Origin: Fulvia fulva
Taxonomy: Eukaryota; Ascomycota; Dothideomycetes; Mycosphaerellales; Mycosphaerellaceae
Assembly (NCBI RefSeq): GCF_020509005.1
Contig: NC_063012.1
Span: 3,968,001-4,032,000, forward strand
DNA length: 64,000 nt
Reading direction: 5' to 3'
Part shown: piece after piece, positions 40,694 to 44,394 of the stretch
How positions within the stretch are numbered: position 1 is the first letter of the stretch
How the letters are laid out: every line of letters begins with the position of its first letter
Position numbers and translations under genes: made by a program
Notes under the pieces: model-generated
Told to the model about the DNA's origin: nothing
Database searches by the model: none
The model's input: the letters and a program-made list of their open reading frames with translations, nothing else

Positions 40694-41701
40694 TCACTTC
40701 GAAGCAATCATGATCTTCTCGAAGACTTCGGTACCTTCACGACCAAGGGCAGTTCCCACACCTACGATGGATGCACCCACTGCACGCATTCTGTCATAGC
40801 CGCTTCGGTCGTTGACCCCACCCACGCCTATGATCTCGATTGCACGCAGACTATCGTGTTGATCCAGCATCGACCTTATAGTCTTGACATTGCCGAGTGC
40901 GAGAGGATGTCACGGTGCGCCTGCCATGCCACCAATGCCTGCACCGTTTGCTGAGTTGAGGGCAGGTGTGCCATGTGTATCAGCGAGCACTAAACTTGAG
41001 CCAAGGGTATTTGTCGCCGTGATGAGGTCAATTGGGCACTGAGGCTCGCTGACTGCGAGCAGAGCATCGATCAAGATCTGAAACTGGTCATGATAAGTAT
41101 ACGGAGGCGTTTTGATCCCAATGGCGATTTTCTTGGCATCGGTGTTAGAATGTCGCTCCTTGACCAATGCTTGAAGGTACTCGGACAACGACGACCCAGA
41201 ATACGCTGGAGGTGGTTTGCCAGGTATGTTCGGGCACGAAAGATTGATCTCCATGCACAGAGGATTCGGCATGATGGTTTGCAGCGCCTGAATCCAGCGA
41301 TAGCACTCCGCCACAGCTTGGGCGGGCCCAGTCACAGAGATGATGAATGGCTTGCTCCGTCGCAATGCATCAGGGAGAGTTGAATCGGCCATCACGCGTC
41401 CCAGCATCGCAAGATAGGAAGCCAGGTCTATCGGACTGTAGCCGAGCGTGTTCAAGCTGCCACTGAAGCTGGCAGGTACATCTGCATCATCAGCAGTGTG
41501 CGGGTGGGCCTTGTGCTCATCTGAACTGAAGAACGTGTACTGATGTATATTTGCATCGTGAGCGAAGCCGTTGAGAAGGCTTGTGCGTGTGGTGACAGCT
41601 CCTGTACGAGGACAATCGAACAGCTTCTGGATGTCCCCGGCGGTCGTTGCCCATGGATTGGATGAGTTCACCAAGCATAGCGTTATCGGTGGCAGGGGCA
41701 T
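40694..41701 (-). pseudogene. Class 1A dihydroorotate dehydrogenase with in-frame TGA
   Basis: Cytosolic fumarate-type FMN enzyme (URA1-like), a class found patchily in fungi beside the mitochondrial class 2 enzyme. From MPLPPITLCLVNSSNPWATT the frame carries TGAVTTRTSLLNGF, NTLGY, SVTGPAQAV, MEINLSCPNIPGKP, IGIKTPPY, DLITATNTLGSSL and GIGGMAGAP. Then comes TGA (40910-40912). Without any frame change it continues HPLALGNVKTIRSML, IEIIGVGGVNDRSGYDRMRAVGAS and VGTALGREGTEVFEKI, ending at TGA 40694-40696. The missing part holds FMN-phosphate binding sequences, so truncation should inactivate the enzyme. The gene is otherwise perfectly preserved. Confidence 0.85.
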
Positions 41702-42130
41702 CCTCGGTCACTTCCAGCATGAGTTGTAGTTGTAGATGCGATGCGTTACTCAATGCTGATTTTAATGGCTTGCAAGATCGATTGTCAGCGTAAATTTGGA
41801 GCCATCGGAGTCACTCCGAGCCCGGGCAGCCGTTGTGAGCATTGCCGAGATCAACCTTCGATCTATCATCTTGCGAGCCTTCTGCAACGACCTTCTCTCT
41901 CGCAAACTGACTGATCTGAGTGGGCGATCATAACTCGGAGTCATCAGAACTATGGACATATGAAAGGTTGGGTCCCCTGAAAATGTCACCAAGCCCGCGT
42001 TCTTACTCGTGTCCTTTCCTGACTGGCTGCACGCGCCTTCTACGGCCCCATATGAACGGCGTCGTCTCCCCAGCTCTGCGGCATATTGCTGAGCTACATA
42101 TATCAACTTAGATCTGGAAGTATCACCAAT
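41702..42130. other. Intergenic region
   Basis: 429 bp between the dehydrogenase start and the tRNA. No gene seen. Confidence 0.4.
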
Positions 42131-42155
42131 GGCGTTGTAGCAAAGTGGTTAATGC

Positions 42156-42207
42156 GTAAGTTGTCTCACTGAGCAACTGTTCGCACCGTCTCTAACTTCC
42201 TTTGCAG
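42156..42207 (+). other. Intron 1 of tRNA-Ser, spliceosomal-like, 52 nt
   Basis: Lies after the D stem, at position 25/26. It begins GTAAGTTGT, has CTCTAAC with the branch A 12 nt before the end, and finishes CCTTTGCAG. These are optimal fungal spliceosomal signals. An internal AGTTG/CAACT hairpin can form near the 5' end. Confidence 0.75.
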
Positions 42208-42219
42208 GATTGACTAGAA

Positions 42220-42241
42220 TGTCTATCAATTGACAGTTGCT
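42220..42241 (+). other. Intron 2 of tRNA-Ser, canonical 37/38 position, 22 nt
   Basis: Removal leaves loop CTAGAAA and stem ATTGA/TCAAT. The intron contains TCTA complementary to TAGA of the anticodon loop, as expected for substrates of the tRNA splicing endonuclease. The boundary could shift by one or two bases. Confidence 0.65.
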
Positions 42242-42260
42242 ATCAATTCCCTTCGGGGGC

Positions 42261-42313
42261 GTGTAAGTTGTACTGCAACCACCTGGGCCAGGCCTCCATC
42301 TGACGTCCAACAG
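42261..42313 (+). other. Intron 3 of tRNA-Ser, spliceosomal-like, 53 nt, inside the T stem
   Basis: Interrupts the T stem between GC and AGG (positions 50/51). It starts GTGTAAGTTGT, has CTGAC with A 10 nt before the end, and finishes CCAACAG. Near the 5' end GTTG/CAAC can pair. It shares GTAAGTTGT with intron 1. Confidence 0.7.
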
Positions 42314-42351
42314 AGGTTCGAGTCCTGCCAACGTCGACGTTGTCCGCCACC

Positions 42352-42356
42352 TTTTT
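42352..42356 (+). terminator. RNA polymerase III terminator (T5)
   Basis: Five thymines 16 nt after the discriminator base of the tRNA, the usual Pol III stop. It supports a transcription unit spanning all insertions. Confidence 0.6.
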
Positions 42357-43312: not shown

Positions 43313-44394
43313 CTACAGATCAGCTCTTGCTTCCTCTCCGGCCCAGCATCGCCTGATCGTCTCCCTGAGTGGCTCCTTCTCAACGCCTCGCGGATTCCAA
43401 TAGGGGTTGGACACTGCAATCTCAGCTGCCTTGTCTACGTCTTCCTCTTTCATGCCAAAGTCTTTCAGTCCTCGCTTCACCTTGAGCTTCGTTAGCAGCA
43501 CGTTCAGTCCATTGATCGCATCGCCATCACTTTCTGGCAGCACATCGGCCAGTCTTCTCAGGACATCTGGATCTTTGGAGCGTTGTATGCTATGGCGTGC
43601 GGCAACACAATCGTATGTGTCTCCGCATGGGGTAGGTTAAAAGATCCGCCAAGGGCATGGCAGAGCTTATGATGCAAACTCATGCCAACCGATCCAAGAC
43701 ACATCGCACATAACCAAGCGCCATACTGAGCTTTGATGCGAGCTTCACGATTCTGTGAATCATTCACGATGATTGGTAAGGACTCTGCCAGTGACTTTGT
43801 GCCTTCCAGTGCGAGCAAGTTCATAACGGGATTCGTGTTTCGAGCATATAGTGCCTCGACTGCGTGGGCTATGGCGTTCACGCCACTAGTCGCACTTAGA
43901 GCTGGTGGGAGGGTCATGGTGAAGTCCACGTCGTATATCACAATTCCCGGAAGGATCTTCGGATCTGATCTGGTCGTCTTCTTGCCGTCTGCTGTCTCGC
44001 CCAGGATGGGTGTCATCTCCGAGCCAGCGTAGGTTGTGGGTATAGAGATGTGCGGCAGACCTGTCCTGATCGATATCGCTTTGCCCAAGCCAGTAGTACT
44101 ACCACCTCCGAAGCTCACCAAGCAATCGGCACCACAGTCTTTGGCATATGTCAAGGCCTCATTGGTGACATAGGTTGGAGTGTGCATTGTGGCATTAGAG
44201 AACAATCCCGCTTTCTGAATCCCTCCGCGCTCCAGGATAGGCTCTAGCTGTACCACTTGGTTCCTCTGCTGAGGTGTAGACAGCAACAACGGCTTTGATA
44301 GGTTTAGTCGTTTGATCTCTTCCGGTAATTTGTTGATGCTGCCGGCGCCGAAGACGACTCTGCCAGGGTTGACATTGTACTCAAAGGACTCCAT
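43313..44394 (-). pseudogene. Maleylacetate reductase with a frameshift
   Basis: Iron-type alcohol dehydrogenase family enzyme that reduces maleylacetate to 3-oxoadipate in aromatic (hydroxyquinol/resorcinol) breakdown. The first 276 codons from MESFEYNVNPGRVVFGAGS include SFGGGSTTGLGKAIS, PTTYAGSEMTPI, SGVNAIAHAVEAL and GMSLHHKLCHALGG. The metal histidines are present. About one base is missing near 43571-43575, after AYNAPKI. Reading the other frame from there restores PDVLRRLADVLPESDGDAINGL and the normal C-terminus to TAG at 43313. The product as read stops 3 codons after the lesion. A genuine deletion or an assembly indel are both possible. Confidence 0.85.

Follow-up and report, generated by a model that had tools for sequence, protein, structure and literature searches.

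Short spliceosomal-type introns in tRNA genes of Fulvia fulva

Main finding

A tRNA-Ser(AGA) gene of Fulvia fulva contains two short introns of spliceosomal type in addition to a canonical 37/38 tRNA intron, and GT-AG introns of this kind are found in 12 other tRNA genes of the same genome. Very probably, working tRNA genes have gained short spliceosomal introns, and the spliceosome removes the GT-AG introns while the tRNA endonuclease removes the one at 37/38. At the DNA level, the support consists of the layout of the genes and its recurrence, a spliced product that is conserved or co-varies, the splice signals, and a paralog without one of the introns. Transcription, the polymerase, the spliceosome as the enzyme, and the order of the two reactions are deduced from these features.

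The tRNA-Ser(AGA) gene

The window, which is the whole stretch of 64,000 nucleotides that was analysed, spans C1:3968001-4032000. The initial annotation described a tRNA-Ser(AGA) gene with two spliceosomal-type introns and a canonical 37/38 intron at 42131-42336, and the sequence matches this description. The gene and its surroundings comprise the following features.

42099..42103, + strand: TATA-like element, 32 nt upstream of the tRNA 5' end (putative role)
42131..42155, + strand: exon 1, with the 5' acceptor strand and the D arm to nt 25
42138-42148, + strand: A box TAGCAAAGTGG, uninterrupted, in exon 1
42156..42207, + strand: intron 1, 52 nt, GTAAGT..CTAAC (42192-42196)..GCAG, after tRNA nt 25
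42208..42219, + strand: exon 2a, with the anticodon AGA at 42216-42218
42220..42241, + strand: canonical 37/38 tRNA intron, 22 nt
42242..42262, + strand: exon 2b, with the 3' anticodon strand, the variable arm and the first two T-stem bases
42263..42313, + strand: intron 2, 51 nt, GTAAGT..CTGAC (42300-42304)..CAACAG, inside the T stem
42314..42336, + strand: exon 3, with the T arm, the 3' acceptor strand and G73
42315-42325, + strand: B box GGTTCGAGTCC, uninterrupted, in exon 3
42352..42356, + strand: T5 run, then GC; likely Pol III terminator (putative function)

The spliced exons (42131-42155, 42208-42219, 42242-42262 and 42314-42336) form a class II tRNA-Ser(AGA) with paired stems. After removal of 42156-42207, 42220-42241 and 42263-42313, the product has 81 nt and is called Ser(AGA) by ARAGORN. 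The initial annotation had the class, the anticodon, the paired stems, the 52 nt of intron 1, and a second spliceosomal-type insertion in the T stem, all of which stand. It began intron 2 at 42261, and 42263 (GTAAGT) is the better reading, which changes the intron from 53 to 51 nt and the tRNA from 79 to 81 nt. The start at 42261 (GTGTAAGT, 53 nt, 79-nt tRNA) is less likely, since its donor is weaker and the variable arm would lose two nucleotides. Position 42263 is preferred because of its better donor and because the variable arm is then equal in length to that of the paralog. The intron at 42220-42241 is separated from the anticodon by one nucleotide on the 3' side, which is not the case for the other two.

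The 23-mer of exon 3 has a single occurrence in the genome. The gene sits between two minus-strand ORFs (the upstream one ends at 41707 and the next starts at 43558), and no ORF of at least 250 aa covers it on either strand. In the window, ARAGORN finds 0 genes and Rfam at gathering scores gives 0 matches, including none to a group I or group II ribozyme core. Introns of about 50 nt are too short for group I or group II. The neighbouring dihydroorotate dehydrogenase gene (window 40709-41701, minus strand) aligns to its relatives over the full length in one piece and has no mRNA intron; an in-frame TGA ends its ORF at 40910. Among the named matches listed, the closest protein is that of Dothistroma septosporum, at 79%.

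An intact, intron-free tRNA-Ser(AGA), L005, is located at C1:10104844-10104925 on the minus strand. When aligned by hand, the two genes are identical in 66 of 82 columns; the variable arm has 13 nt in both, and only one gap, in the D loop, is needed. The comparison covers 23 stem pairs, of which three belong to the variable arm; 17 pairs are unchanged, 5 are changed on both sides, and 0 are broken. The remaining pair has a one-sided change that gives a G-U pair. Five compensatory changes and no broken pair indicate that selection on the tRNA keeps the intron-separated Ser exons together. Intact, expressed Ser(AGA) copies elsewhere, with no reads from this locus, had been named as evidence against the initial interpretation, and the intact L005 bears this out in part. 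Given L005, the Ser gene in the window need not be required.

The set of intron-bearing tRNA genes

The genome comprises 67,169,167 bases in 14 contigs. The solver starts from a B box and looks for acceptor, D, anticodon and T stems, T8, A14, the D-loop GG and T33, with up to three GT..branch..AG deletions allowed. In its strict form, applied to 126 B boxes of the examined loci, it gives Ser(AGA), Glu(CTC) four times, Pro(CGG), Pro(TGG), Thr(AGT) and Val(CAC), as well as L097, which was rejected. The relaxed form adds Asp(GTC) and Ile(AAT), the latter from 191 B boxes, and a route through the A box adds a second Asp(GTC) and Pro(AGG). The total is 13 genes with 7 amino-acid specificities and 27 GT-AG introns. 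Besides the Ser gene, these are four Glu(CTC), three Pro (AGG, CGG, TGG), Thr(AGT), Val(CAC), Ile(AAT) and two Asp(GTC) genes. The GT-AG introns measure 49-62 nt in 26 of 27 cases, and one has 86 nt. A canonical 37/38 intron of 10-31 nt is present in 12 of the 13 genes and absent from Thr. The GT-AG introns have the following positions, in linear tRNA numbering with canonical introns subtracted.

Ser: after nt 25 and 58
Glu: after nt 22 and 51
Pro(CGG): after nt 20 and 46
Pro(TGG): after nt 9 and 24
Pro(AGG): after nt 27 and 52
Thr: after nt 9 and 17
Val: after nt 15 and 19
Ile: after nt 15 and 26
Asp: after nt 10, 27 and 50; second Asp after nt 27 and 50

The smallest internal exon has 4 nt (Val, CGGT). 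Some spliced tRNAs are imperfect: Asp and Ile each have one acceptor mismatch, and Val ends in T73. On the unspliced genes, ARAGORN gives the correct anticodon in 0 of 13 (10 without a call, 3 with a wrong anticodon). With the GT-AG introns alone removed, it is correct in 11 of 13, and with every intron removed in 13 of 13; random deletions of the same length give the correct anticodon in 276 of 3,900. Rfam finds no tRNA in eight intron-bearing loci at E values up to 1, and the plain Gly(TCC) gene L043 is found at 41.2 bits. The Thr gene, L022, has an Rfam match above the cut-off, but over a stretch other than the spliced tRNA. Across the whole genome, the Rfam tRNA model RF00005 has 22 matches at E<=0.001 and 28 at E<=10, in a non-exhaustive search that scored 63 of 1,234 first-look candidates. 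Patterns of a B box plus T4 occur 39, 7, 27, 41 and 53 times, compared with 2, 1, 7, 22 and 10 in reversed controls; these counts are inflated by overlapping T runs, and the last also by a dispersed repeat.

Among the fully readable genes, which are not a census, 13 have GT-AG introns and 12 do not. The plain set consists of L002 (Cys), L004, L005, L006, L007, L008, L009, L010, L011, L012, L013 and L043. L009 is read as Ala(CGC) by the solver and as Ser(GCT) by ARAGORN. L003, L020, L021 and L023 were ambiguous and left out, as were two more stretches of L002 that resemble tRNAs, the six repeats of 115 nt (L014-L019) and the tRNA-like families. ARAGORN calls L021 an intron-free Pro(TGG). One-intron solutions for L097, L101, L109 and L069 were rejected for weak donor or branch sites; the first three are part of a tRNA-like family, and the rest of that family is read with an insert in the anticodon loop instead.

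Splice signals and intron placement

All 23 tabulated introns have GT..AG borders, with GTNNG[TC] in 21 and GTAAG in 10. The branch motif CT[AGT]A[CT] occurs near the 3' end of all 23, as CTAAC in 15, and the 3' ends are CAG in 14, TAG in 6 and AAG in 3. GT, AG and the looser branch motif are required by the solver, and count as independent only through the placement test. With splice signals ignored and the other intron fixed, structure permits 2 of 3,197 placements for Ser intron 1, one of them GT..AG, and 5 of 3,151 for Ser intron 2, two of them GT..AG. For the 23 introns, structure permits 1-26 placements each and 213 in total; about 0.8 GT..AG are expected, and 23 of 23 sets contain one. 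This test is a placement check and not a blind discovery, because the genes were found by requiring GT-AG. A strict scan of the window for GTRWGY..CTRAC..YAG, blind to tRNA structure, gives 7 cassettes of 48-59 nt, compared with about 2.1 in shuffles, and both Ser GT-AG introns are among the seven. A looser cassette scan of the window gives no excess.

Conservation, possible gain and copying of introns in Glu and Asp genes

The four Glu genes are located on four contigs, and their mature 72-nt tRNA is identical. Pairwise identity is 51-66% in the 60 nt upstream and 56-64% in the 40 nt downstream; the GT-AG introns are 51-83% identical, and the canonical intron 61-90%. The two Asp genes also have identical mature sequences, and they have two intron sites in common, with 37 of 57 and 33 of 56 intron columns identical. 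In one of them an extra intron of 52 nt, GTCAGT..CTAAT..AAG, splits the A box after nt 10; the other is uninterrupted there. The Asp pair is a more independent check on the introns than the placement test.

In the Glu gene at C5:1957026 (L071, minus strand), the core of intron 2 copies intron 1 in 26 of 32 columns, a match equalled by 0 of 300 shuffles. In the remaining three Glu genes, intron 2 has no comparable match to intron 1. The L071 pattern points to intron transposition or conversion inside one tRNA gene. A genome search with the Glu intron-1 core at up to 3 mismatches gives 4 hits, with 1 in the reversed control. Two of the hits are the C5:1957026 introns, a third is intron 1 of a different Glu gene, and the last is at control level. 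Copies that have diverged escape the core pattern, which fails to pick up intron 1 in two of the four Glu genes. The many near-identical genome-wide copies that mark introner-like elements are not seen for this core. Other introns were compared with the examined loci and the window. The Glu exon-intron pattern has 0 matches in viral contigs.

The genome has 22 TGGTCTAGTGG sites, and each was read. A tRNA begins at seven of them (Glu four times, Asp, Pro(CGG) and Pro(AGG)), in every case a gene with GT-AG introns, and the other 15 are, by eye, not recognisable tRNA starts. The assembly therefore has no Glu(CTC) or Asp(GTC) gene that combines a TGGTCTAGTGG A box with the lack of introns, and no intron-free gene of either kind is among the RF00005 matches; a Glu or Asp gene with a different A box could escape this search. 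As a whole, TGGTYTAGTGG is at control level (40 vs 52), and the pattern TRGCTCAGTNGG occurs 53 times, compared with 33 in the reversed control. Of the 18 TGGTTTAGTGG sites, the four that were read are plain tRNAs.

Asp codons have one decoder. Since there is a single decoder and no intron-free Asp(GTC) was found, splicing of the Asp genes is probably required. It is likely, with somewhat less confidence than for the main explanation, that the spliceosome is part of essential tRNA maturation in this fungus. Every gene found for at least Asp and Glu bears introns, translation would depend on their removal, and introns would still be gained, lost and copied. The pre-tRNAs would then probably be Pol III transcripts, with exons as short as 4 nt. 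Plain genes for other tRNAs and the intron-free Pro(TGG) that ARAGORN calls at L021 count against a wider requirement.

Transcription and proposed processing

TATAW lies ahead of the gene in 8 of the 11 intron-bearing cases and in 7 of the 12 plain ones. All 11 tabulated intron-bearing genes, most of them selected by the T4 pattern, are followed within 60 nt by a T4-T5 run, often TTTTTGC, and 10 of 12 plain genes are followed by such a run. The B box is intact in 13 of 13, as the search requires, and introns lie inside the A box in five genes. A split A box would be expected to impede Pol III, unless elements upstream of the gene are enough for transcription. The T runs and TATA-like elements resemble those of plain genes, and Pol III is therefore likely to make the precursors despite the five split A boxes.

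In the simplest route, RNA polymerase III would most likely transcribe the Ser gene and its kin. The spliceosome would recognise GTNNG..CTRAY..AG by intron definition and take out both GT-AG introns. The tRNA endonuclease and ligase would take out the 37/38 intron, and the tRNA would then mature normally.

Alternative explanations

The search is flexible, with up to three deletions allowed, and ARAGORN is permissive with introns (276 of 3,900). When the ends of each gene are kept and the middle is dinucleotide-shuffled, however, none of 1,000 shuffles for any of the 13 genes reaches the real score, and any solution at all is obtained in 4 of 13,000; for the Ser gene, the result is 0 of 1,000 in each of three runs. 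With everything upstream of the B box shuffled, 0 of 57,834 strict solves score above 0, and 1 of 26,248 relaxed ones scores at least 15 (maximum 18.6; real genes 20.0-27.8). The rejected L097 also beats its own shuffles, so the shuffle test indicates non-random tRNA structure and not introns as such. Four Glu loci, and two Asp loci, independently yield the same mature sequence. The probability that the intron-tRNA parses are chance products is accordingly close to nil.

The three options of the initial annotation fare differently. A spliceosome that processes a Pol III transcript is best supported, by recurrence (13 genes, 7 specificities), by GT-AG borders with a branch motif, and by conservation and covariation. 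A tRNA-splicing endonuclease of widened range would cut all the introns and make their GT-AG look incidental; ectopic multiple nuclear tRNA introns are so cut in a red alga (PMC3978253), and 12 of the 13 genes do contain a 37/38 intron. Pairing of the bulge-helix-bulge kind, in which two 3-nt bulges flank a 4-bp helix at the junctions, is however no commoner than chance. In a sequence test of the 4-bp helix alone, 3 of 23 introns pair in one topology, for which mismatched pairs predict about 1.4; the second topology gives 0 of 23. The backgrounds are 0.059 and 0.008. The GT..AG pairs in 23 of 23 placement sets, where about 0.8 are expected among 213, and the clustering of 26 of 27 lengths at 49-62 nt also make this enzyme a very improbable one. 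Spliceosomal introns, or some process of intron gain, that struck silent, duplicate tRNA genes are hardly more probable. The intact Ser(AGA) L005 and the split A boxes are in keeping with such relics, but the mature Glu tRNA is identical in four diverged loci and the mature Asp tRNA in two, and the Ser gene has five compensatory changes and no broken pair. Neither tRNA structure nor conservation is lost, as it would be in pseudogenes, and intron-free Glu(CTC) or Asp(GTC) genes are found neither with the TGGTCTAGTGG A box nor among the RF00005 matches. RNA polymerase II as the source of the precursors, with the spliceosome acting on a capped transcript, is unlikely but less so; it is a variant of the best explanation, with which its odds overlap. 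Spliceosomal introns are normally in Pol II transcripts, and the A box is interrupted in five genes. Against it are the B box (13 of 13, search-required), the T4-T5 runs (11 of 11, mostly selected), the TATA-like elements shared with plain genes, and the place of the Ser gene, which is flanked by minus-strand ORFs on both sides and is not covered by any plus-strand ORF of at least 250 aa.

Comparison with known systems

Nuclear tRNA introns are treated as a separate world, with one site, one endonuclease and no spliceosome. The canonical 37/38 introns of eukaryotes also occur in 12 of the 13 genes here, at 10-31 nt. The extra introns, in contrast, have GT-AG borders; they follow nt 9 to 27 or fall in the region that begins with the variable loop and reaches into the T stem. 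U6 snRNA genes of some fungi contain an mRNA-type intron, and U6 is transcribed by Pol III. U6 is a spliceosome component and one gene family, whereas many tRNA isotypes with multiple introns are involved here.

Fungal U3 snoRNA genes, including those of Dothideomycetes, have normal GT-AG introns with RCTRAY-type branch sites; these introns average 92 nt, there are occasionally two per gene, and paralogs exist with and without an intron (PMC5832005). The tRNA genes resemble U3 in having GT-AG borders and a branch site in a small structured non-coding RNA gene, and paralogs with and without an intron. They differ in having two or three shorter introns together with an endonuclease-type intron. 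In Cyanidioschyzon merolae, 34 of 43 nuclear tRNA genes are disrupted at non-canonical sites and overlooked by standard finders (PMC3978253). Those introns have a bulge-helix-bulge and are cut by the tRNA endonuclease, while those of F. fulva have GT-AG borders, a branch site, about 50 nt, and no bulge-helix-bulge. Introner-like elements, which multiply spliceosomal introns, are reported in Fulvia fulva and its relatives in a paper whose main text contains 'tRNA' 0 times (PMC4457414). The fungal group is the same, and one Glu intron copies another; unlike the elements described there, the tested core has no near-identical genome-wide family. Among the open-access papers listed in literature searches, none describes spliceosomal introns in tRNA genes of the nucleus; an earlier description elsewhere, for example in subscription journals or preprints, is possible.

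Taken together, the genes suggest that the fungus may need its mRNA-splicing machinery to make some of its tRNAs. If the introns are spliced as they look, the spliceosome handles tRNA precursors with tiny exons, and tRNA supply is coupled to mRNA splicing. In that case, tRNA inventories of such genomes that rely on standard finders would contain serious errors (Rfam none in eight loci, ARAGORN 0 of 13 correct). The Asp pair with and without an intron and the Glu intron copy are direct material for how introns are gained.

Other tRNA-like features

CGTTC..CG family: L097, L108, L109, L110, L112 and L117, and also L106, L113 and L118, are tRNA-like and often paired. They have good acceptor, D and T stems that co-vary, and an anticodon-loop insert of 60-90 nt, usually without U33. 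The insert contains a common motif near CGTTYATAGCACT. These are neither ordinary tRNAs nor solved by GT-AG introns.

Second tRNA-like family: L125 and L130 have a CTAGCTCAGTGG D arm, an AGTTC T arm, and anticodon-loop inserts of 66-76 nt, mostly without U33. The family forms a tandem cluster, with four members within 1.5 kb at C11:1847170-1848690.

Repeats: L056, L077, L078 and L080 are tRNA-like repeat clusters with GTCCAATGGCAGGA D arms and GGTTCAATTCCTTCCCACTC 3' ends. L014-L019 are six nearly identical, dispersed 115-nt tRNA-like copies on six contigs; five are the same over the stretch compared, and one has a base change. Their appearance is that of a mobile element. At about 26 places, for example C1:1993174-1993217, there is a dispersed repeat that starts like a B box (AGTTCAATTCTTCGACGTRACCGTTTAGGTCTAGAGTCGC).
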